DNA from: Pseudomonadota bacterium
GTDB lineage: Bacteria; Pseudomonadota; Alphaproteobacteria; Acetobacterales; Acetobacteraceae
Direction: 5' to 3'
DNA length: 38,614 nucleotides
NCBI GenBank assembly: GCA_021847175.1
Contig: JAJZUI010000006.1
Span: 1-38,614, forward strand
Shown here: piece by piece, positions 15,759-37,931 of the stretch
Layout of the letters: each line of letters opens with the position of its first letter
How positions within the stretch are numbered: position 1 is the stretch's first letter
The notes under the pieces: model-generated
The model's database searches: none
What the model saw: only the letters and a program-made list of their open reading frames with translations
What the model was told of the DNA's origin: nothing
Translations under genes and position numbers: made by a program

Positions 15759-16904
15759 CTAGACAGGCGGTATCCGCACCCAGCCTTCCATCAGGCGGCG
15801 CGCTGAGCGGCTCATCAGCACCTTGCTCACCACCCATTCGCCATTCCGCTGTTCCGCCTCGGCGCCGACGCCGAGCGTGCCGGAGGGGTGGCCGAACCGC
15901 ACCCGCCCGTCCGCGCCGGCCGGCGCGACGCGGTTGACCAGCGTGCCGGGCACGCAGGCCGCCGCGGCGATGGCAACGGCCCCGGTGCCCGTCATCGCGT
16001 GGTGCAGCGGGCCCATCGAGAAGATGCGCGCCAGCAGGTCGATCGAGGACGCGGCGACCTTCTTGCCGGAGGATGCGGTGTAGTCGCGCGGCTTCGCGAC
16101 ATAGGCGATCTTCGGCGAATGCAGGAGCCGCCGCGCGTGGACGTCCTCCGCCGAGGCCGCGAGGCCCATGGCGACGGCGCCCGCCACGCGGATCGCCTCG
16201 GCGCGGTCGAGCAGCGCCTGGTTGGTGTTCACGTCCGGCTGCAATTCCGTCCCCGTGAGGCCGAGCGTCGCGGCATCGACGAAGACGGTCGGCAGCCCGG
16301 CGTTGATCAGCGTGGCCTCGACCTCGCCCATCCCCGGAACGGCAAGCCGGTCGATCCTGTTGCCGGTCGGGAACATCGCGCCGGTCTCGCCGGGGTCGAG
16401 GAATTCCAGCCTTATCTCGGCGGCGGGGAAGGTGACGCCGTCGAGCTCGAAATCGCCCTCCTCCAACACCTCGCCGCCTCGCATCGGCACGTGGGCAACA
16501 ATCCGCTTGCCGATATTGGCCTGCCAGATCCGCACCGTCGCGATGCCGTGCGCGGGTGCGGCCACCAGTCCCTGTTCGATGGCGAAGGGTCCCACGGCGG
16601 TGGTGAGGTTGCCGCAGTTGCCGGACCAGTCGATCACCGGCTTGTCGATCGCAACCTGACCGAACAGGTAATCCACGTCGCTGTCGGGCCGCGCGGACTT
16701 GCCGACGATGACGATCTTGCTGGTGGAGGATGTCGCCCCGCCCATGCCGTCGATCTGCTTGCCGTAACGGTCCGGGCTGCCGATCACCCGCAGCAACATC
16801 CGCTCCCGCGCCGCCTTATCCGCCGGCAGGCTGCCAGCAAGGAAGAACACCCCCTTGCTGGTGCCGCCGCGCATGTAGGTGGCGGGAATGCGGAGCTGGG
16901 TCAT
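15759..16904 (-). CDS. PrpF-family isomerase (methylaconitate / oxalomesaconate type)
   Basis: The 381-residue protein matches PrpF: the start PATYMRGGTSKGVFF, DGMGGATSSTSKI near residue 53, WSGNCGNLTTAVG near 93, and GVGAEAEQRNGEWVV near the end. PrpF proteins have the diaminopimelate-epimerase fold and move double bonds in unsaturated di- or tricarboxylic acids, for example 2-methylaconitate in propionate use or 4-oxalomesaconate in gallate degradation. No prpBCD or gallate genes are near. It starts 19 nt after the stop of the upstream deacetylase gene on the same strand, so the two are probably co-transcribed. The closing gap to the SHMT-like gene is only 10 nt. The precise substrate cannot be told. 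Confidence 0.85.
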   Translation of the reverse strand: MTQLRIPATYMRGGTSKGVFFLAGSLPADKAARERMLLRVIGSPDRYGKQIDGMGGATSSTSKIVIVGKSARPDSDVDYLFGQVAIDKPVIDWSGNCGNLTTAVGPFAIEQGLVAAPAHGIATVRIWQANIGKRIVAHVPMRGGEVLEEGDFELDGVTFPAAEIRLEFLDPGETGAMFPTGNRIDRLAVPGMGEVEATLINAGLPTVFVDAATLGLTGTELQPDVNTNQALLDRAEAIRVAGAVAMGLAASAEDVHARRLLHSPKIAYVAKPRDYTASSGKKVAASSIDLLARIFSMGPLHHAMTGTGAVAIAAAACVPGTLVNRVAPAGADGRVRFGHPSGTLGVGAEAEQRNGEWVVSKVLMSRSARRLMEGWVRIPPV

Positions 16905-16923: not shown

Positions 16924-18051
16924 TCACCCGTGCCACCATTTCCCGCCGAGCACGATCCCCTTGCAGGCGAGCTTCCGGTCCGTCGCGAGCTTCTCGCCGG
17001 TGACGTCCTCGAGCTCGAATTTTCCCGTGTCGAAATCCAGCACCGTGGCGTCGCCGAGCAGTCCCGGCTTGAGCGTGCCGCGGTCGGTGAGGCGGATCGC
17101 CTTCGCCGGGTTGATGGTCGCGGCGCGCAGCACCTCCATCAGCGGCATGCCGATGGCAAGCAGCTTCGTCATCGTGGTCAGCAGCTCATAGGCCGGCCCG
17201 TCGATCGAGACCGCGTGCACGTCGGACGAGATCACGTCCGGCATGAACCCGGCCTTGACCATCTTCATCGCGGTCTCCCAGCCGAAGCTGCCCGCACCGT
17301 GGCCGATGTCGAAGATCACCCCGCGCGCACGCGCCGCCTCCACGTCCGCCTGGATCCGCCCGTCCGGCCGGTAGGGCAGGTTGGGGAAGGGTCGGAAGCA
17401 ATGCGTCAGGATGTCGCCCGCGCGCAGCAGGCCCATCACCTCCTGGCGCGAGGGCGGCGTCTGGTCGAGATGTGCCATCACCGGCAGGCCGGCCGCCTCC
17501 GCCACATCCAGCCCGATGCGCAGCGGCTCCGCGCCGAGCACGCCGGAGGTGCCGGCGCCGACGCGCACCTTGATGCCCACCACGAGATCCGCGTCGCGCT
17601 TCGCCACCTGCAGCGCGAGCTTCGCGTTCAACAGCCGCAGATCCTGGCTCTCGCCCACGTTGATCGCGGGGTGGAAGCCGAAGATGCCGGCGAAGGAGAC
17701 GTGCATGAACGGGAGCACCCGCACCTCGGAGCGCTCGATGATCAGCTTGCGGAACCCATGCAGCGTGCCGGGCCCGGCGGAGCCCGCATCGACCAGCGTG
17801 GTGCAGCCGCTGATGCGCGCGTAGTCGTCCGGCATCACGCCGAGCGAGGTTCCGCCCCACCAGACATGGGTGTGCAGGTCAATGAGGCCGGGGACGACCA
17901 TGCGGCCGGAGACGTCGCGGGTCTCCTTTGCCGGGCCGAGGTCCGGCCCCACCGCCGCCACCTTGCCGCCGGCGAACGCCACGTCCGCGACCGTATCCAT
18001 CCCCTGCGCGGGGTCCAGAACGCGCCCACCCTTGAGCACCAGATCGAACAT
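16924..18051 (-). CDS. Amidohydrolase/deacetylase family metallohydrolase (COG3964-like)
   Basis: The 375-residue enzyme has the amidohydrolase fold: small N-terminal beta domain, then LIDLHTHVWWGGTSLG with metal ligands His60 and His62, a probable carboxylated Lys161 in GIKVRVGAG, His194 in AHLDQ, His217 in ILTHCF and Asp277 in SSDVHA. The WWGGTSLG and FAGIFGFHPAI segments point to the COG3964 group. Members of this group (such as Atu3266 and EF0837) have been studied as hydrolases of acetylated 2-hydroxy acids; acetyl-(R)-mandelate is the substrate I remember. The second of two adjacent ATGs (18051) has GGGAGG at better spacing. It heads a two-gene unit with the PrpF-like isomerase and is divergent from the long plus-strand operon. 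Confidence 0.85.
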   Translation of the reverse strand: MFDLVLKGGRVLDPAQGMDTVADVAFAGGKVAAVGPDLGPAKETRDVSGRMVVPGLIDLHTHVWWGGTSLGVMPDDYARISGCTTLVDAGSAGPGTLHGFRKLIIERSEVRVLPFMHVSFAGIFGFHPAINVGESQDLRLLNAKLALQVAKRDADLVVGIKVRVGAGTSGVLGAEPLRIGLDVAEAAGLPVMAHLDQTPPSRQEVMGLLRAGDILTHCFRPFPNLPYRPDGRIQADVEAARARGVIFDIGHGAGSFGWETAMKMVKAGFMPDVISSDVHAVSIDGPAYELLTTMTKLLAIGMPLMEVLRAATINPAKAIRLTDRGTLKPGLLGDATVLDFDTGKFELEDVTGEKLATDRKLACKGIVLGGKWWHG

Positions 18052-18107
18052 CATGCCTCCCAGTTTGCAACGGCGCGGCAGCGTCGCAGTATGGCCCAGA
18101 GGACGCA

Positions 18108-18136
18108 AGATTAGGGGCGCAACCCGCTCCTGTCGC
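18108..18136 (-). promoter_or_regulatory. Candidate promoter of the deacetylase-PrpF unit
   Basis: On the minus strand GCGACA and TAATCT are 17 nt apart, placing a start site near 18101 and a leader of about 50 nt. The region is shared with the divergent aminotransferase gene, whose ATG is only 7 nt beyond the -35 box. Confidence 0.35.
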
Positions 18137-18143
18137 ATGGGGG

Positions 18144-21416: not shown

Positions 21417-22474
21417 GACGCAAGGTAGCGGTGGTCGGGCTCGGCATCGGGCGCGCCCATATCGACGAGGCTTATTCGAAGCTGCCCGCTCATTGGGAGG
21501 TTGCGGCGATCTGCGACACCGACGCCGCGCGCCTGTCCAAGGTCGGCGGCGAGTTCGGCATCGCCCGGCGCACCTCCTCCTTCGCGGACGTGCTGGGCAT
21601 GGCGGATATCGATGTCGTGGATCTCTGCACGCCGCCGGCACTGCACCGCGAGCAACTGCTGGCCGCGATGGAATCCGGCAAGCACGTGATCTGCGAGAAG
21701 CCCTTCGTGACCTCGCTCGCGGAGATGGACGCGGTCGAGACCGCGGCGGCCGCGGCCCGGGGAACGGTGATGCCGATCTTCCAGTACCGCTGGGGCGACG
21801 GCTTCCGCCGCGCGGTGCGCGTGGTGCGCGCGGGCCTCGCCGGCAAGCCGTACAACGCGACAGTGGAAACCGCCTGGCGGCGCGACAAGGATTATTACGA
21901 CATCAAGTGGCACGGCACCTGGGCGATCGAGCGCGGCGGCTGCCTGCTCGGGCATGCGATCCACATCCACGACATGATGCAGGAACTGATGGGCGACGCG
22001 GCCAGCGCCTACGCGAATGTCGCCACGCGGGTGAACCCCATCGAGACCGAGGATTGCGCGGCGGCAAGCCTGCGCATGACCAGCGGCGCGGTGGTAGCGC
22101 TTTCGGCCACGCTCGGCTCAGCCACCGAGATCTCGCGCATGCGCCTCCATTTCGAGAACGTTACGTTCGAGAGCGGCACCGAGCCCTACGCGCCGGGCAA
22201 CGAGCCCTGGCGGATCCTGCCGCGCAACCAGGCCACGAAGGAGGCGATCGACCGCCTGCTCGCCAACCACGCACCCTACCCGATCCGGTTCGAGGGCCAG
22301 TTCCGCGCCTATGCCGAGGCGCTGGACGCCGGCGGGCCGCCGCCGGTGACGCTCGCCGACGCGCGGCGCTCGCTCGAGCTCATAACCGCGCTTTACGGCT
22401 CGGTGGCGAGCGGCATGCCGCAGGCGCTGCCGGTACCGGCGTCGCATCGCGGCTACCGGGACTGGCGGCCGTGA
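21413..22474 (+). CDS. Gfo/Idh/MocA family oxidoreductase
   Basis: The 353-residue NAD(P)-dependent dehydrogenase has a Rossmann domain starting VAVVGLGIGRAH, the ICEKPFVTS motif with Glu95-Lys96-Pro97 typical of the family, and a C-terminal domain with GGCLLGHAIHIHDMMQ, where a His acts in catalysis in related enzymes. Family members oxidise or reduce sugars, inositols and related hydroxy compounds. GAAGGAGAAACG precedes the ATG. Both ends overlap neighbours by 4 nt, so it is firmly part of the operon. The substrate is unknown. Confidence 0.9.
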   Translation: MRRKVAVVGLGIGRAHIDEAYSKLPAHWEVAAICDTDAARLSKVGGEFGIARRTSSFADVLGMADIDVVDLCTPPALHREQLLAAMESGKHVICEKPFVTSLAEMDAVETAAAAARGTVMPIFQYRWGDGFRRAVRVVRAGLAGKPYNATVETAWRRDKDYYDIKWHGTWAIERGGCLLGHAIHIHDMMQELMGDAASAYANVATRVNPIETEDCAAASLRMTSGAVVALSATLGSATEISRMRLHFENVTFESGTEPYAPGNEPWRILPRNQATKEAIDRLLANHAPYPIRFEGQFRAYAEALDAGGPPPVTLADARRSLELITALYGSVASGMPQALPVPASHRGYRDWRP

Positions 22475-23514
22475 ACCAGGCCGTGAACCCCTGGAGCGAA
22501 ACCCGGATCTGGAACGGCGGCGAGTTCCCGCTGGAGCGCGGCGGCAGGCTCGCGAAACTGGAGATCGCTTACGCCACCGCCGGTACGCTGTCGCCGGACG
22601 GGCGCAACGCGGTGCTGCTTACCCATGGCTACACGTCGAGCCACCGTTTCGCCGAGCCCGCTTCCGACGGCGCGGAGGGCGGCTGGGCGCTGCTGGTCGG
22701 GCCCGGCCGCGCGGTTGATACCAACAAGCTGTTCGTCGTGGCACCCAACATGCTCGGCTCCTGCCATGGCACCACCGGCCCCGCGAGCATCGACCCAGCG
22801 ACTGGTGAGCCCTATGGCCCGACGTTTCCGGAATACACCGTCGCCGACATGGTGCGCGGGCAGAGGGCGCTGCTCGATGCGCTGGGCGTCAAGCACCTGG
22901 TTGCCGTGGTCGGCCCCTCCTATGGCGGGTTTCAGGCTTTCCAGTGGGCCGTGACGTTCCCGGACTTCATGACCGGCATCGTCGCCGCGGTCACGGCGCT
23001 GAAGCGCCCGCGCGACGAGAACGCCAACACCTCCGCCGACCTCGCCAAGGGCTTCGAGCACGACCCCGGCTGGAACGGCGGGCACTGCTATCCCGGCGGC
23101 ATCAAGGCGACGATGGCGAAGCTCAGGGTCAGGACGCTCAAGAACTATGGCATCGAGGCGCGGCTGGCGCCGAAATACCCGGACGCCGGGGAACGCGAGC
23201 GCGCGATCGAGGCGATCGCCGCGAAATGGGCCGAGGAATTCGACCCCAACTCGCTGATCGCGCTGCGCCGTGCGCTCGACTTCTACGACATCACGCCGCA
23301 TGTCGGCCGGATCAGGGCCAAGGTGCTCTACGCGATCTCGCGCACCGACAAGCTCTTCCCGCCCTCGCTGGAGGGGCCGACCATGGCGGCGTTCCGCGCG
23401 GCCGGGGTGGATGCCACCTACACGCTGATCGACAGCGAGCTTGGCCATTCAGCCTCCGGCGACGACGCGGCGAAATGGGAGCCGGCGCTGCGGGACTTCA
23501 TGGCGCGACTTTAG
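22471..23514 (+). CDS. Alpha/beta hydrolase, homoserine O-acetyltransferase-like
   Basis: The 347-residue protein resembles MetX: the N-terminal LAKLEIAYATAGTLSPDGRN, THGYTSSHRF oxyanion region, nucleophile Ser150 in VVGPSYGGFQAFQW (MetX has GGSMGGMQ), Asp293 in SRTDKLFPP and His326 in ELGHSASG. True MetX acetylates homoserine for methionine synthesis; without a met gene nearby and with a changed nucleophile elbow this copy is more likely an esterase or acyltransferase of the pathway. The GTG start overlaps the previous stop. The stop codon lies inside the first unit of a 14-nt tandem repeat. Confidence 0.85.
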   Translation: MNQAVNPWSETRIWNGGEFPLERGGRLAKLEIAYATAGTLSPDGRNAVLLTHGYTSSHRFAEPASDGAEGGWALLVGPGRAVDTNKLFVVAPNMLGSCHGTTGPASIDPATGEPYGPTFPEYTVADMVRGQRALLDALGVKHLVAVVGPSYGGFQAFQWAVTFPDFMTGIVAAVTALKRPRDENANTSADLAKGFEHDPGWNGGHCYPGGIKATMAKLRVRTLKNYGIEARLAPKYPDAGERERAIEAIAAKWAEEFDPNSLIALRRALDFYDITPHVGRIRAKVLYAISRTDKLFPPSLEGPTMAAFRAAGVDATYTLIDSELGHSASGDDAAKWEPALRDFMARL

Positions 23515-23600: not shown

Positions 23601-24662
23601 ATGCCGCACGCGGCTTCGGGCATCGATTGCGACATCCATCCGGCGCTGCCGTCGATTTCGGCGCTGTTTCCGTATCTGCCGGCCTACTGGTCGGAGCAGC
23701 TGCGGGTGCGCGGCACGGACGGGTTCGACTCCATCCTCTACCCGCCGAACGCGGGGTTTTCCTGTCGGGCGGACTGGCGGGACGGCGCCAAGCCCGGCAC
23801 GAGCCTGGAGGCGCTGCGCCGCCACGCGCTCGACGGGTTCGGCACCCGCATCGCGGTCTGCAACCTGCTCTACAACGTCGCCGCCGTGCGCAACGCGGAC
23901 CTCGGCACGGTGCTGGCGCGCGCCATGAACGACTGGCTCGCGGCCGAATGGCTGGACCGCGAGCCAAGGCTGCGAGCGGCGATCCATATCGCACCGCAGG
24001 ACCCCGGCGCCGCCGCGGAGGAGATCGAGCGCCGCGCCGCCGATCCCCGCTTCGTCCACGTGCTGCTGCCGGCGATGGACGAGACGCTGTTCGGCAAGCG
24101 CCTGTTCCGCCCGATCCACGAGGCCGCCGCGCGCCACCGCCTGCCGCTTGCCATCCACGCGCAGATGACGGCGACTCACGCCACCACCTCGAACGGCTGG
24201 CCCTCGCATCTCGCCGAGGACCACATCGCCATGGCGCACGCGTTCCAGGCGCAGTTGCTTAGCTTCGTGTACGAAGGCGCGTTCACGGCCTTCCCGGAGC
24301 TGCGACTGGTGTTGCTGGAAAGCGGCTTCGCCTGGCTGCCGAATTTTCTGTGGCGCGCCGACCGCACCTGGAAGGCGATGCGCGCGGAGGTGCCCTGGGT
24401 GGACACGCCGCCCTCCGCCATCCTGCGCGAGCACGTGCGCATCGCGCTGCAGCCGGCCGAGGCGCCGCCCGACCCTGCGCAGCTCCCGATACTGCTCGAG
24501 CAGTTGGGCGGCGACGAGCTGCTGCTGCTCTCCACCGACTGGCCGCACGCGCAGTTCGCCGGCAACGACCCGTTTCCCGCCGGCTTTCCCGCGACCCTCC
24601 GCCGTCGCGTGGCGGAGGACAATCCCCGTGCCGTCTATCCCCGCATCGAGGTGAGCCCATGA
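23601..24662 (+). CDS. Amidohydrolase family protein (ACMSD-type), first paralog
   Basis: The 353-residue protein belongs to the amidohydrolase-2 group that includes aminocarboxymuconate-semialdehyde decarboxylase. It has DCDIHP with metal ligands Asp11 and His13, a His-rich stretch LAIHAQMTATHATTS near residue 190, the FVYEGAFTAFPELRLVLLES strand, and LLLSTDWPHAQF near the end with the conserved Asp. Such enzymes decarboxylate or hydrolyse ring-cleavage products. It clearly resembles the next gene along its whole length, and its stop overlaps that start (ATGA). The N-terminus is about 15 residues shorter than in the paralog. Confidence 0.85.
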   Translation: MPHAASGIDCDIHPALPSISALFPYLPAYWSEQLRVRGTDGFDSILYPPNAGFSCRADWRDGAKPGTSLEALRRHALDGFGTRIAVCNLLYNVAAVRNADLGTVLARAMNDWLAAEWLDREPRLRAAIHIAPQDPGAAAEEIERRAADPRFVHVLLPAMDETLFGKRLFRPIHEAAARHRLPLAIHAQMTATHATTSNGWPSHLAEDHIAMAHAFQAQLLSFVYEGAFTAFPELRLVLLESGFAWLPNFLWRADRTWKAMRAEVPWVDTPPSAILREHVRIALQPAEAPPDPAQLPILLEQLGGDELLLLSTDWPHAQFAGNDPFPAGFPATLRRRVAEDNPRAVYPRIEVSP

Positions 24663-25789
24663 CGCCCGACGACGGATTGGTTCTCGCGGATCGTGCCGCG
24701 CGCGGCGAGGCGCGGCTGAAAATCATCGACTGCGACGTGCACCATGCGTTGCGCAGCGCGGCCGACCTCAAGCCGTTTCTCGCCACGCGCTGGCAGGAGC
24801 ATCTCGATCGTTACGGTTTCCGCGTGCCGACCCCGTTCCTGTCCTCGCCGCAATACCCGAAGGGTGCGCCGGCCCTCTCGCGCACGGACTCCTGGCCGCC
24901 CAACGGCGGGCCGCCCGGTAGCGACCTCGCCTTCCTGCGCGAGCAACTGCTGGACCGCTGGGGCATCAGCTTCGGCCTGCTTCACTTCCTGTTTCCCGGC
25001 GCGATGGACCAGCGCAACCAGAGCTTCGGCAACGCGCTCGCCCGCGCGCTCAACGAATGGCAGGTGGAGCACTGGACGCGGCACGAAAGGCGGCTCAAGG
25101 CCGGCATCATCCTGCCTGGCGAGGATGCGGACGCGGCGGTGGCCGAGATCGAGCACTGGGCCGGGCATACCACAGCGGGAGGGGGCGATTTCGTGCAGGT
25201 GGCGCTCGCTACCCACACGATCGAGCTGCTGGGCCGGCGCCGCTACTGGAGGATCTACGAGGCTGCCGCGGCTGCGGGCCTGCCGCTCTGCCTGCACACG
25301 ATGGGCTATAACGGCCGCGCGGTGACGCCAGCGGGCTGGCCCTCCTTTTATGTCGAGGAACACCACGAGGTTGCGATATCGCAACAGACGGTCGTGGCCT
25401 CGCTGATCCTGGAGGGTGTGCTGGAGCGCATCCCGGACCTCAAGGTGGTGATCGTGGAGGCGGGCTTTGCCTGGGTGCCGGGCTTCGCCTGGCGGCTCGA
25501 CCATTACTGGTCGCGCTTCCGCGACGAGCTTGAGCATGTCACGCGCCCGCCCTCCGAGACCATCCGCGAGCGCTTCTGGTTCACCTCCCAGCCCGCGGAC
25601 GAGCCGGAGAAGCCGGAGCAGCTGCGCCAGACCATGGACTGGATGGGCTGGGATCGGCTGCTCTTCGCGACGGACTATCCGCACTGGGACATGGACAACC
25701 CCGAGCACGCCTTCCGCATGCCGATGAGCGACGAGGAGAAGCGCATGGTCTTTGCCGGCAACGCCGAGCGTGTGTACGGGCTCTCCTGA
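24659..25789 (+). CDS. Amidohydrolase family protein (ACMSD-type), second paralog
   Basis: The 376-residue protein has IDCDVHHALRS with metal ligands Asp26 and His28, LCLHTMGYN near residue 215, EEHHEVAISQQTVVASLILE near 237, and LLFATDYPHWDMDNPEHAF near the end with the catalytic-type Asp. It shares a pattern with its upstream neighbour, for example GFAWVPGFAWR against GFAWLPNFLWR. The ATG at 24659 overlaps the previous stop; an open frame further upstream runs through the paralog and is not coding. The two may form a heteromer or act on successive intermediates. The Rieske gene begins directly after its stop. Confidence 0.88.
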   Translation: MTPDDGLVLADRAARGEARLKIIDCDVHHALRSAADLKPFLATRWQEHLDRYGFRVPTPFLSSPQYPKGAPALSRTDSWPPNGGPPGSDLAFLREQLLDRWGISFGLLHFLFPGAMDQRNQSFGNALARALNEWQVEHWTRHERRLKAGIILPGEDADAAVAEIEHWAGHTTAGGGDFVQVALATHTIELLGRRRYWRIYEAAAAAGLPLCLHTMGYNGRAVTPAGWPSFYVEEHHEVAISQQTVVASLILEGVLERIPDLKVVIVEAGFAWVPGFAWRLDHYWSRFRDELEHVTRPPSETIRERFWFTSQPADEPEKPEQLRQTMDWMGWDRLLFATDYPHWDMDNPEHAFRMPMSDEEKRMVFAGNAERVYGLS

Positions 25790-26203
25790 GTGGCCAGGCA
25801 CGTCGTCGCAAAGGCGGAGGAGATTCCGCCAGGCAGCCGCAAGCTGGTCACGGTCCGCGGCCGCGAGATTGGCATCTTCAACCACGAGGGCGAGTTCTTC
25901 GCGCTGCTGAACCGCTGCCCGCACCAGGGGGGCGCGCTGTGCAAAGGCACGCTGGTCGGCCTCGTCACATCGGACGCGCCCGGTACCTATGATTATTCAC
26001 GCCCCGGCGAGATGCTGAAATGCCCGTGGCACGGCTGGGAATTCGACCTGCGCACCGGGCAATCCTATTGCGATCCCAAATCGACCTGGGTGCGCGCCTA
26101 CGAGGTGACGGTGGAACCCGGCGAGGTGCTGGCCAAGGGACCGTTCGTCGCGGAAACCTTCCCGGTCAGCATCGAGGAGAATTACATCGTGGTGGAGCTG
26201 TAG
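25790..26203 (+). CDS. Rieske [2Fe-2S] ferredoxin-type protein
   Basis: The 137-residue protein is a single Rieske domain with both cluster-binding pairs: Cys43-x-His45 in CPHQGG and Cys78-x2-His81 in CPWHGWEFD. Cys51 follows the first pair, and residues 52-75 form a longer insert than in small ferredoxins. It is likely the electron carrier of a dioxygenase or monooxygenase, but no oxygenase alpha subunit or reductase is encoded here, so its partner must lie elsewhere. The GTG start follows the amidohydrolase stop without a gap, which shows tight coupling. Confidence 0.9.
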   Translation: MARHVVAKAEEIPPGSRKLVTVRGREIGIFNHEGEFFALLNRCPHQGGALCKGTLVGLVTSDAPGTYDYSRPGEMLKCPWHGWEFDLRTGQSYCDPKSTWVRAYEVTVEPGEVLAKGPFVAETFPVSIEENYIVVEL

Positions 26204-26210
26204 GAACGGC

Positions 26211-27380
26211 ATGACGATCAAGGGGAAGGCGTTCATCGCCGGTGCCTACGAGCACCCGACGCGCAAGGCGCCGGACAAGTCCGTCATGCAGCTGCACGCC
26301 GAGGCCGCGCGGGGTGCGCTGGAGGATGCCGGGCTTACCAAGGACGACGTGGACGGGTATTTCTGCGCCGGCGACGCGCCGGGCATGGGTGTGTTCTCCG
26401 TCGCCGATTACATGAATCTCCGGTTGCGCCACGTGGATTCCACGGATACCGGCGGCTCCTCCTACCTGGCGCACGTGGCGCACGCGGCTGAGGCGATCGC
26501 GGCGGGCAAGTGCAACGTGGCGCTGATCACGCTCGCCGGTCGCCCGCGCAGCGAGGGCATGGCGACCGGCACCGCGGCGCGCCAAGGCAACCCTGGCCAG
26601 CCGGAGGTCGGGTTCGAATATCCGTACGGGCTCACCGTCGCCAACGGCTATGCCATGGCGGCGATGCGCCACATGCACGAGTTCGGTACGACATCGGAGC
26701 AACTGGCCTGGGTTAAGGTCGCCGCTTCCCACCACGCGCAGCACAACCCCAACGCGATGCTGCGCGACGTGGTGACGGTGGAGCAGGTGCTGGCGAGCCC
26801 GATGGTCACCACACCGCTGCACCGGCTCGACTGCTGCGTCATCTCGGATGGCGGCGGCGCGCTGGTGGTGACGCGCGAGGAAATTGCCCGCGGCCTCAAG
26901 CGCCCGTTGGTGCGCGTCATCGGCGCTGGGGAGTCGCCCAAATTCTCGGGCGGCGGCTTCATGGACCTGACCTACACCGGCGCCCGCTTCTCTGGCGCCG
27001 CGGCCTTCGCGGAAGCCGGCGTCAAGCCCGCGGATATCCAGTACGCCTCCATCTACGACAGCTTCACCATCACCGTGGTGATCCAGATCGAGGATCTCGG
27101 CTTCTGCGAAAAGGGCAGGGGCGGGGCCTTCGTTGCCGACGGCAACCTGATCAGCGGCGTGGGCAGGCTGCCCTTCAACACGGATGGCGGCGGGTTGTGC
27201 AACAACCACCCTGCGAACCGCGGCGGCATGACCAAGGTGATCGAGGCGGTGCGCCAGCTTCGCGGTGAAGCGCACCCGAAGGTGCAGGTCCCCGGCTGCA
27301 CGCTCGCCCTCGCGCACGGCACCGGCGGGCTGATCGCGACGCGCCACGGCAGCGCCACCCTCATCATGGAGCGGATCTGA
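26211..27380 (+). CDS. SCP2-type thiolase-like protein lacking the nucleophilic Cys
   Basis: The 389-residue protein has the thiolase fold of the lipid-transfer (SCP2) branch. The loop that normally carries the acyl-accepting cysteine reads DTGGSSYLAHVAHAAEAI, so Ser or Gly replaces Cys. The later histidine segments NNHPANRGG and LAHGTGG and the IYDSFTITVVIQIEDLGF block are present. Together with the DUF35 protein encoded 1 nt overlapping downstream this recalls the Ltp2-ChsH2 pair of steroid side-chain degradation, where the thiolase-like subunit is a retro-aldolase for acyl-CoA. A related carbon-carbon cleavage is the best guess here. It starts 7 nt after the Rieske stop. Confidence 0.85.
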   Translation: MTIKGKAFIAGAYEHPTRKAPDKSVMQLHAEAARGALEDAGLTKDDVDGYFCAGDAPGMGVFSVADYMNLRLRHVDSTDTGGSSYLAHVAHAAEAIAAGKCNVALITLAGRPRSEGMATGTAARQGNPGQPEVGFEYPYGLTVANGYAMAAMRHMHEFGTTSEQLAWVKVAASHHAQHNPNAMLRDVVTVEQVLASPMVTTPLHRLDCCVISDGGGALVVTREEIARGLKRPLVRVIGAGESPKFSGGGFMDLTYTGARFSGAAAFAEAGVKPADIQYASIYDSFTITVVIQIEDLGFCEKGRGGAFVADGNLISGVGRLPFNTDGGGLCNNHPANRGGMTKVIEAVRQLRGEAHPKVQVPGCTLALAHGTGGLIATRHGSATLIMERI

Positions 27381-27766
27381 TGGCAGAGCGGCGTTATCCC
27401 GAGCCTGTGGTCACGCCCGAGACGGGTGAGTTCTGGCAGGCGGCGAAGGAAGACCGCCTGCTGATCAAGCGCTGCCGCGCATGCGGCAAGTTCCACTGGT
27501 ACCCTCGCGCCGTCTGCCCCCACTGCATGAGCGGCGAGACGGAATGGGTGGAGGCGGAAGGCGATGGCACCATCTATAGTTTCTCGGTGATGGAGCGCGC
27601 CGAGGTGCCCTACGCCATCGCCTATGTGGAACTCGCCGAGGGCGTGCGCATGATGACCAACATCGTGGACTGCCCCTTCGCCGGGATCCGCATCGGCCAG
27701 GCGGTACGCGTCCGCTTCGCGCCGACCGAGGGGGGCGGCAAACTGCCTGTCTTCGTGCCGGCCTAG
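27380..27766 (+). CDS. DUF35 Zn-ribbon/OB-fold protein, acyl-CoA binding partner
   Basis: The 128-residue protein has the classic DUF35 layout: an N-terminal helix, a rubredoxin-like zinc ribbon with Cys32-x2-Cys35 and Cys46-x2-Cys49 (RCRACG...VCPHCMSG), and an OB fold with GTIYSFSVMERA and an IGQAVRVRF ending. Such proteins bind the acyl-CoA and stabilise a thiolase-like catalytic partner. The start overlaps the thiolase stop (TGATG). Its TAG stop shares the tetranucleotide CTAG with the stop of the convergent anti-sigma gene. It closes the operon. Confidence 0.92.
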   Translation: MAERRYPEPVVTPETGEFWQAAKEDRLLIKRCRACGKFHWYPRAVCPHCMSGETEWVEAEGDGTIYSFSVMERAEVPYAIAYVELAEGVRMMTNIVDCPFAGIRIGQAVRVRFAPTEGGGKLPVFVPA

Positions 27767-36348: not shown

Positions 36349-36795
36349 ATGGACAGCTCTCCGCCGCGTGACCTGTACAGCATCAGCGAGCTCGCGCTCG
36401 AACTCGGCATCACGCCGCGGGCGATCCGTTTTTACGAGCAGAAGGGCCTGCTCTCACCGCGCCGCGCCGGCGCGCACCGGGTGCTGGACAGGCGCGACCG
36501 TGTGCGGCTGCTGCTGATCCTGCGCGGAAAGCGGCTCGGCTTTTCGCTCGATGAGATTGCCGAATATCTGCGCCTCTACGCCGCGGACCGCACGCAGGTG
36601 GCACAGATGCGCATGCTGCTCGCGGCGACGCGCCAGCGCCAGGCGGAGCTGCAGCGCCAGCGCCACGACCTCGACGTGACGCTCGCGGAACTGGGCGACA
36701 TCGAACGCCAGGTGCTGCGCGCGCTCGCCAGCCAAGGTGCAACCGAAGCGGGCGCCACCGAAGCGACCGACAGCGACGAACGGAGCAGGACATGA
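36349..36795 (+). CDS. MerR family regulator, LiuR-like
   Basis: The 148-residue protein has an N-terminal MerR winged helix (YSISELALELGITPRAIRFY, then GLLSPRRAGAHRVLDRRDRV) followed by LILRGKRLGFSLDEIAEYL, a block typical of LiuR regulators of acyl-CoA catabolism. The C-terminal half is a coiled coil rich in Gln, Arg and Leu (about 85-130) ending in DIERQVLRALAS. There is no cysteine effector site. The ATG at 36349 has AAGGA closely upstream; one at 36337 is an alternative. Its stop overlaps the thiolase ATG. It probably responds to an acyl-CoA and represses its own operon; the palindrome at 35713 is the likely site. Confidence 0.85.
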   Translation: MDSSPPRDLYSISELALELGITPRAIRFYEQKGLLSPRRAGAHRVLDRRDRVRLLLILRGKRLGFSLDEIAEYLRLYAADRTQVAQMRMLLAATRQRQAELQRQRHDLDVTLAELGDIERQVLRALASQGATEAGATEATDSDERSRT

Positions 36796-37931
36796 ACGAG
36801 ATCGTGATCGCGGGCTACAAGCGCTCGCCGTTCCACTTCGCGAACAAGGGTGAGTTGGTGAAGACGCGCCCCGACGACATGGCGGGCATTGTGGTCAAGG
36901 CGCTGGTGGCCGAGAGCGGCATCGACCCCGGCGCGATCGAGGACGTGATCGTCGGCTGTGCCTTTCCGGAGGCGGAACAGGGTTTCAACGTCGCGCGCAT
37001 CGTCTCCTTCATCGCGGGACTGCCACAATCGGCGGGCGGTGTCACCGTGAATCGTTTCTGCGGCTCCTCGATGCAGGCGATCCACCAGGCTGCCGGGGCG
37101 ATCATGATGGGCGCGGGCGAGGCCTTCGTCTGCGCCGGGGTAGAGAGCATGAGCCGTGTGGCGATGGGCGGCTTCAACCCGATGCCCAATCCCGGACTGA
37201 TGGAAAGCTTTCCGCAGGTCTACATCTCCATGGGCGACACGGCGGAGAACGTCGCGCGGAAATACCAGCTTTCACGCGCCGAGCAGGAGGCCTTCGCCGT
37301 GCGCAGCCAGGCCAAGGCCGCGACGGCGCGCGAGGAGGGGCGCCTCGCCGTCGAGATCGTTCCGATCGCGACCAAGGCGGGCACGGTGGAGCGCGACGGC
37401 TGCATCCGCCCGGAGACCAGCGCCGAGGGCCTCGCCGGGCTGAAGCCCGCGTTCCGCCAGGACGGCACCGTCACCGCCGGAACCTCCTCGCCGCTCACCG
37501 ATGGCGCGACGGCGGTGCTGGTCACCACCGGCGACTTCGCCCGCGCGCAGGGGCTGCCGATCCTCGCCAGGATCCGTTCGATAGCGGTTTCCGGCTGCGC
37601 GCCGGAGATCATGGGCATGGGGCCGGTCGGCGCCTCGCGCAAGGCGCTGGCGCGCGCCGGCATCACCGCCCGGGATATCGACATCGTCGAGATCAACGAG
37701 GCGTTCGCGAGCCAGGCCATCGCCTCCCTGCGCGAGCTCGCGCTGCCGGAGGAAAAGGTCAATCTCGACGGCGGCGCGATCGCCATCGGCCACCCGCTCG
37801 GCGCCACCGGAGCGCGCATCACCGGCAAGGCGGCGGCGCTGCTCAGGCGCGAGGGAGGACGTTTTGCTCTCGCAACGCAGTGCATCGGCGGAGGCCAGGG
37901 AATCGCGACCGTCCTCGAGGCCGTTTCGTGA
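36792..37931 (+). CDS. Acetyl-CoA C-acyltransferase (thiolase)
   Basis: The 379-residue thiolase cleaves 3-ketoacyl-CoA in the last step of beta-oxidation. All active-site motifs are intact: Cys90 in NRFCGSSM, GGAIAIGHPLGATGAR with the catalytic His near residue 337, and the second Cys in TQCIGGGQG near 364. The INEAFASQAI block is also present. It is a typical FadA-type enzyme, unlike the Cys-less thiolase-like protein at 26211. Start and stop both overlap the neighbouring genes (ATGA before, GTGA after), so regulator, thiolase and dehydrogenase form one operon. Confidence 0.95.
   Translation: MNEIVIAGYKRSPFHFANKGELVKTRPDDMAGIVVKALVAESGIDPGAIEDVIVGCAFPEAEQGFNVARIVSFIAGLPQSAGGVTVNRFCGSSMQAIHQAAGAIMMGAGEAFVCAGVESMSRVAMGGFNPMPNPGLMESFPQVYISMGDTAENVARKYQLSRAEQEAFAVRSQAKAATAREEGRLAVEIVPIATKAGTVERDGCIRPETSAEGLAGLKPAFRQDGTVTAGTSSPLTDGATAVLVTTGDFARAQGLPILARIRSIAVSGCAPEIMGMGPVGASRKALARAGITARDIDIVEINEAFASQAIASLRELALPEEKVNLDGGAIAIGHPLGATGARITGKAAALLRREGGRFALATQCIGGGQGIATVLEAVS

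Follow-up and report, generated by a model that had tools for sequence, protein, structure and literature searches.

A Cys-less thiolase-like protein and its DUF35 partner: a predicted two-component acyl-CoA retro-aldolase in an acetobacterial genome

In the window, that is, the whole 38,614-nt stretch of DNA analyzed here, two adjoining genes encode a thiolase-like protein and a DUF35 protein that probably form a two-component C-C lyase like Ltp2/ChsH2, Sal/Shy and IpfD/IpfE, with a predicted retro-aldolase activity. Among the explanations weighed, the retro-aldolase reading is the best one when homology and active-site residues are taken together, and it is well supported by homology. The idea had been raised in a preliminary description of this DNA, and the support it has gained is that of homology: the thiolase-like protein is placed on the Ltp2/Sal/IpfD side of the tree and Sal, Ltp2 and 4u4e are its top structural matches. 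Ltp2 and Sal have been described as aldolases (PMC12329534) and IpfDE has been described as catalyzing the retro-aldolase step on an ibuprofen-CoA diol (PMC9195938). The evidence for the aldolase reading consists of the loss of the nucleophilic Cys, the His-to-Tyr swap that is linked to it, a set of invariant residues, a constant DUF35 partner, and the placement of the protein by phylogeny and by structure.

The gene pair and its family

The thiolase-like gene (26211..27380, + strand, ATG start) encodes a 389-aa SCP2-thiolase-like protein of the PRK08142 family, the putative retro-aldolase catalytic subunit. The next gene (27380..27766, + strand, ATG start) encodes a 128-aa DUF35/ChsH2-like protein with a zinc ribbon and an OB fold, the putative obligate partner. 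The TGA of the first ORF and the ATG of the second have one base in common, and this 1-bp overlap at 27380 agrees with what had been described before, although the earlier title was wrong in calling the pair "fused", as these are two separate genes. In Pfam, Thiolase_C_1 was found above the cut-off and Thiolase_N under the cut-off in the thiolase-like protein, and both OB_ChsH2_C (PF01796) and zf-ChsH2 (PF12172) were above the cut-off in the DUF35 protein. In NCBIfam, the thiolase-like protein is a member of PRK08142 (NF006010; 720.8 bits compared to a cut-off of 462, residues 1-388), a family named "thiolase domain-containing protein" for which no function is given there; neither these two identifiers nor the family name turned up in any paper of the literature searched. 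Among solved structures, the nearest chains are 4u4e, a putative thiolase (1.7e-91), 9myr, which is Sal (3e-56), and 6ok1, which is Ltp2 (4.2e-48), and the closest DUF35 protein in the PDB to that of the window is ChsH2 (6ok1_B; 1.4e-20).

The family was assembled from 111 loci, from which three duplicates (L034, L043 and L035) were dropped to give 108 distinct members that span about 60 to 97% identity. Close copies of the pair are present in many soil bacteria. Relatives at 60-76% identity are found on plasmids and secondary replicons of Methylobacterium, Cupriavidus, Delftia, Variovorax, Rhodococcus, Pseudonocardia and haloarchaea. Among 60 genomes searched from relatives, including the window's own genome, 37 gave at least one hit with E <= 0.001; apart from the locus in the window, 24 places showed 72-97% identity along 315 residues or more. 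In a sample of 142 genomes from the class (own genome included), 10 passed the family cut-off, compared to none of 14 control genomes.

A DUF35 gene lies directly downstream of the thiolase-like gene in 105 of the 106 distinct loci for which 300 bp or more of downstream sequence is present, L095 being the exception. The distance from stop to start, measured in 105 of them, ranged from -30 to +60 bp (median 3 bp). The pairing of the two genes is far beyond chance. The DUF35 protein of the window has all four zinc-ribbon cysteines (Cys32, Cys35, Cys46 and Cys49; 27473..27526, + strand), and the earlier statement that its zinc ribbon is intact is therefore true for this protein. An intact ribbon is no rule of the family, however, since the full set of four Cys is kept in only 85 of 106 aligned DUF35 partners. 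Moreover, IpfE, the partner of the reported retro-aldolase IpfD, is without the zinc Cys; with IpfE and part of the 106 partners lacking the full set, the ribbon is not essential to the aldolase class.

Active-site residues and closest relatives

The absence of the nucleophilic Cys, with GGSSYL in its place, was confirmed by alignment. The same genome encodes a normal SCP2 thiolase (RYENACATGTAA, L003) with the motifs NACATG, HDCF and GHPIGATG. In an alignment of the window protein with L003, a further 47 paralogues and 7 reference sequences, the nucleophilic Cys of L003 fell on Gly82 of the window protein (26454-26456), within GGSSYL (residues 81-86; 26451..26468, + strand). By residue counting, the column of Gly82 is Gly89 of Sal, which is named as the Cys-equivalent Gly in PMC12329534. 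Column 83, which is one column past the nucleophile site and is Ser83 in the window protein, is Cys in 14/108 members. The HDCF of Cys thiolases corresponds to YDSF in the window protein (residues 282-285; 27054..27065, + strand, by alignment). Among 56 aligned rows (the window protein, 48 paralogues and 7 references), column 282 is His in 13 of the 14 Cys rows and Tyr in 38 of the 42 non-Cys rows. A further motif, C-N-N-H-P (residues 330-334; 27198..27212, + strand), lies in a stretch of low model confidence. Gly82, Tyr282, Asp283, Ser284, Phe285, Cys330, His333 and Pro334 are invariant in 108/108 distinct family members. These invariant residues, together with a Cys loss that is coupled to a His-to-Tyr swap, show that the protein is not a degenerate copy and that it has a stable, different active site.

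Tyr282 aligns with Tyr294 of Ltp2 and Tyr302 of Sal, each of which is given as the proven base (PMC12329534). Column 284 is Ser in the window protein, His296 in Ltp2, Cys304 in Sal and Ala in IpfD, and column 333 is His throughout the window family, as it is in most Cys thiolases (the His of GHP), Tyr344 in Ltp2, Tyr in IpfD and Gln352 in Sal. The same source describes Tyr294/Tyr344 in Ltp2 and Tyr302/Cys304 in Sal as the catalytic pairs, with residues tested by mutation, and reports that Ser and His variants of the Sal catalytic acid Cys304 are dead (PMC12329534).

A thiolase relative, L174 (G006:C33:2826-3920, + strand), has Ser in the nucleophile column and has kept HDAF and GHP; it is possibly a Ser-nucleophile thiolase, and the quick tree described below places it with the Cys rows. 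The window's own genome has another thiolase-like gene without the Cys. This gene, L002 (G000:C127:21779-22795, - strand), has GGASG, YDDY and Gln at column 333, is followed by a DUF35-like frame and groups near Sal on the tree.

Phylogenetic analysis was carried out twice, in a quick tree (74 rows) and, with ten long-branch rows left out, in a careful tree (64 rows); par_L181 and 4bi9 had been removed ahead of both trees, 21 of the 108 family members entered them and the root was assumed from the outgroup. The two trees agree in placing the Cys-bearing thiolases on one side and a Cys-less clade on the other. In the careful tree, the Cys-less clade of 53 rows (100/100) holds Sal, Ltp2, IpfD, 4u4e and the window family, and the window protein lies within a 50-row clade (100/97) that contains Sal, Ltp2 and IpfD. 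The window family itself forms a 100/100 clade, which pairs with the 4u4e group (100/99). Sal falls outside a weakly supported group of 46 rows (89/59) that unites Ltp2 and IpfD with the window group; the reported retro-aldolases therefore bracket the window family. AU tests rejected a union of the window family with the Cys-bearing thiolases (p = 0.00033) as well as an exclusive clade with Ltp2 (p = 4.6e-5). Holding the window family and Sal together was not rejected on the quick tree (p = 0.52), whereas the careful tree puts Sal outside. The phylogeny that the preliminary description had called for thus sets the window protein on the Ltp2/Sal/IpfD side, apart from the Cys-bearing thiolases.

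An AlphaFold2 single-chain model of the thiolase-like protein, built from 17 family sequences, had a mean pLDDT of 76.3 and a pTM of 0.83, with poor stretches that include residues 111-144 and residues 327-336, the latter, around His333, having a pLDDT under 50. In a Foldseek search with this model, 4u4e, Sal and Ltp2 ranked first. The VIA-align Z scores were 43.3 for Sal, which is thus the top match by Z, 43.1 for Ltp2 and 43.1 for 4u4e, and 40.6 and below for Cys thiolases, TbSLP, BbsAB and PhlC; the margin between aldolases and thiolases is small and a common fold proves no function.

Comparison with individual systems showed both common and distinct features. The putative thiolase 4U4E from Sphaerobacter thermophilus, which belongs to the sister group, shares Gly-Gly-Ser-Ser, YDSF and HP with the window protein at 44-49% identity, but has MYG after HP; no function is assigned to 4U4E, and a literature search found no paper describing it. 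The bile-acid aldolase Sal-Shy (9MYR) has in common the Gly at the Cys site, YDxY/F, a TITV...EDxGFCEKG stretch and a DUF35 partner, whereas Cys304 (in YDCY) and Gln352 of Sal are Ser284 and His333 in the window protein, and the DUF35 of Shy is fused to a MaoC domain while that of the window is separate, with no bile-acid context seen. The steroid aldolase Ltp2-ChsH2 (6OK1) likewise shares the Gly site, the Tyr base and a separate DUF35 partner, but carries YDHF and the acid Tyr344 where the window protein has YDSF and His333 (108/108). IpfD-IpfE of pIBU218, a retro-aldolase for the ibuprofen-CoA diol and hence for a non-steroid substrate, is also Cys-less, with YDxF and a DUF35 partner; it differs by YDAF, by Tyr at column 333 and by the lack of zinc Cys in IpfE, and its genes sit with dioxygenase and CoA-ligase genes. 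The ipf genes were assigned in the plasmid record by gene order and by the locus tags in PMC9195938. The SCP2-thiolases and the benzoylsuccinyl-CoA thiolase BbsAB share the fold, and a DUF35 protein is likewise part of BbsAB and of the archaeal thiolase complex; the Cys-bearing thiolase rows, with Cys, HDCF and GHPxGATG, stand apart from the window family on the tree. The pIBU218 plasmid also carries an Ltp2-type pair (L065, 938-2502) with YDHF, Tyr at the Tyr344 column and a DUF35 gene of its own, some 9 kb away from the ipf genes.

Neighboring genes, predicted mechanism and alternatives

Since ten plasmid loci had supplied genes for the reference set, counts that include them are biased, and neighboring genes were recounted without these loci and without the window, in 69 loci compared to 40 control tiles; the tiles came from relatives of the window and the loci from wider taxa, and the p values are uncorrected for several tests. 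Acyl-CoA metabolism genes were found near the pair in 39/69 loci and in 12/40 control tiles (p = 0.0096), a moderate association. Weak enrichment, by uncorrected p values, was seen for MaoC (12/69 compared to 1/40, p = 0.029), for SDR other than SDR_MFE (14/69 compared to 1/40, p = 0.009) and for MhpA-like genes (8/69 compared to 0/40, p = 0.026). In the same comparison no enrichment was found for acyl-CoA dehydrogenase (13/69 and 5/40), ECH (9/69 and 5/40), AMP ligase (6/69 and 2/40), CaiB (10/69 and 3/40) or SDR_MFE (7/69 and 1/40). A set of two or more acyl-CoA dehydrogenases plus MaoC was near 10/98 loci; within 8 kb on both sides, this set was present at 8/65 loci (including the reference locus L055) and in 1/20 control stretches, which is not significant. 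The window contains no MaoC, acyl-CoA dehydrogenase or CoA-ligase match with the reference set; any prior hydration must therefore be encoded elsewhere.

Six loci (L037, L041, L075, L082, L090 and L091) show a same-strand run of an ADP-forming ligase, MaoC, two acyl-CoA dehydrogenases, the thiolase, DUF35 and an SDR for which the nearest model is PRK07791. The two dehydrogenases of L041 matched the PimC and PimD models best, under the cut-offs, with IpdE2 second for the PimD-like one. This gene set resembles the igr operon for cholesterol side-chain removal, which holds Ltp2. An SDR of the PRK07791 family, which is 3-oxoacyl-reductase-like, also shares a gene run with the pair in further relatives, which include loci of Rhodococcus, Pseudonocardia, Methylobacterium and M. 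branderi.

In the proposed retro-aldol mechanism, the thiolase fold would bind a 3-hydroxyacyl-CoA, and the DUF35 protein would bind the thiolase dimer in a presumed complex and help to form the cleft for CoA and substrate. Tyr282, the product of the HDCF-to-YDSF swap, would take the proton from the beta-hydroxyl, and the C-alpha to C-beta bond would break to give an aldehyde or ketone and an acyl-CoA enolate. His333, at the place of the Ltp2 acid Tyr344, may then protonate the enolate, which could be held by Ser284 and backbone NH groups acting as oxyanion support. With the Cys gone, the proposal includes no acyl-enzyme. The roles of Tyr282 as base, His333 as acid, and Ser284 and backbone NH groups as oxyanion support are proposed from the comparison of columns 282, 284 and 333, and the acid assignment is a guess, because neither of the acids used by the two relatives (Tyr344 in Ltp2, Cys304 in Sal) is present here.

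Of the observations that speak against the enzyme being solely a retro-aldolase, the neighboring SDR is the main one, and it counts somewhat against this role, as an SDR that oxidizes the beta-hydroxyl would provide a beta-keto and not an aldol substrate. Cys at column 83 in 14 members and the lack of MaoC, acyl-CoA dehydrogenase and CoA-ligase matches in the window also count against the retro-aldolase reading. It is conceivable, though rather unlikely, that the Cys-free thiolase fold acts on a 3-ketoacyl-CoA, by hydrolytic retro-Claisen cleavage or by decarboxylation, with the ketone made by this SDR. The presence, in several relatives, of a PRK07791-type SDR and MaoC in one run with the pair, the retention of the thiolase GHP His as His333 (108/108) and the slow malonyl-CoA decarboxylation described for TbSLP, which is likewise Cys-less (PMC12329534), are consistent with such an activity. 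However, SDR_MFE is near so few loci that its frequency does not differ from that of the control tiles (p = 0.25) and none is present in the window, and the three functions reported within the Cys-less clade are all retro-aldol. Use of the aldolase in the bond-forming direction, or other acyl-CoA enolate chemistry such as an aldol or Friedel-Crafts-like condensation (cf. the PhlC-DUF35 acyltransferases), is improbable. While PhlABC and MucABC, which are thiolase-fold multi-component acyltransferases, were among the structural matches, PhlC-type enzymes ranked under the aldolases in both structure comparisons, the catalytic Cys of the PhlC type (C88 in PhlC) is missing from the window protein, and the neighboring genes lean to acyl-CoA genes of catabolic look.

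It is very improbable that the protein is an active thiolase with another nucleophile, either Ser83 or the adjacent Cys of some relatives. Cys does occur at column 83 in those 14 relatives, and Ser in the true nucleophile column of L174, an HDAF paralogue, indicates that such swaps exist; but column 83 is one beyond the nucleophile, Gly82 is invariant, YDSF replaces HDCF, and the AU test spoke against a union with the Cys thiolases. That the protein could be a non-catalytic scaffold or binding protein, as might be considered given that DUF35 domains serve as scaffolds in other complexes (PMC12329534), is the most improbable of these explanations, since its active-site residues are invariant over the whole identity range of the family.

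Possible substrates, reach and upstream genes

The preliminary description had also stated that no steroid genes are present and that a new substrate is likely. The first statement holds only as to an Ltp2 or Sal orthologue, none of which was found in a search for these orthologues in the 94.5%-complete assembly, where the other Cys-less copy is L002. A new substrate for the window pair is plausible; a non-steroid substrate alone would not be new, because IpfDE acts on an ibuprofen-CoA diol (PMC9195938).

More tentatively, this very widespread family of bacteria and haloarchaea, annotated as thiolase, might represent a further type of DUF35-dependent acyl-CoA retro-aldolase, with Tyr282/His333 and Ser284, that carries out a common non-steroid catabolic step, for which the sets of paired PimC/PimD-like dehydrogenases, MaoC and CoA-ligase in some relatives (Roseomonas-type, Pseudonocardia) would form a dedicated pathway. 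If the retro-aldolase reading is right, the hundreds of records in which this family is called either "thiolase domain-containing protein" or "acetyl-CoA acetyltransferase" would stand for different chemistry, the acyl-CoA pathways of soil bacteria would be read differently, and a C-C lyase or aldol catalyst free of steroid context would be at hand. Further candidates could be sought by a sequence rule that combines Cys to Gly and HDCF to YDxF with an adjoining DUF35 gene.

Upstream of the pair, on the + strand, lie genes for a MetX-like alpha/beta hydrolase (22459..23514), the Amidohydro_2 proteins AH1 (23601..24662) and AH2 (24659..25789), and a Rieske ferredoxin (25790..26203) that ends 7 bp ahead of the thiolase-like gene, and the run 23601-27766 is tight, its genes overlapping or lying no more than 7 bp apart. 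The trio AH1-AH2-Rieske adjoins the thiolase gene only in the window and in its closest congener (G001), the contig of which reaches through the Rieske gene and 52 residues of AH2. In L066 and L130, which are two further congeners, the hydrolase gene is the direct upstream neighbor of the thiolase gene, with no AH1-AH2-Rieske between them. Sequence shared with these two resumes at window position 26188, within the 3' end of the Rieske gene, of which about 20 bp seem to be kept, and such C-termini (...YIVVEL or the like) are also conserved in Rieske proteins elsewhere; a deletion in L066 and L130 therefore fits better than an insertion in the window. Of 20 other Rieske loci retrieved (L226-L245), 10 had the order AH1-AH2-Rieske, and a gene of the thiolase family was seen in none of the 20 within the stretch displayed. 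The trio is portable among relatives. Deduction of the substrate from AH1-AH2-Rieske was rejected, as this is a separate module that is absent from L066 and L130 and stands without the thiolase elsewhere.

A second AH1-AH2-like amidohydrolase pair, with 37% and 48% identity to AH2, is encoded in the same genome (G000:C208:12837-14953). Also in the window are an ordinary FadA-like thiolase (36792-37931; Thiolase_N plus Thiolase_C), located 9 kb downstream of the pair, and a PrpF-family gene (15759-16904) that scored above the 2-methylaconitate isomerase cut-off and adjoins a deacetylase-like amidohydrolase gene (16924-18138, minus strand).
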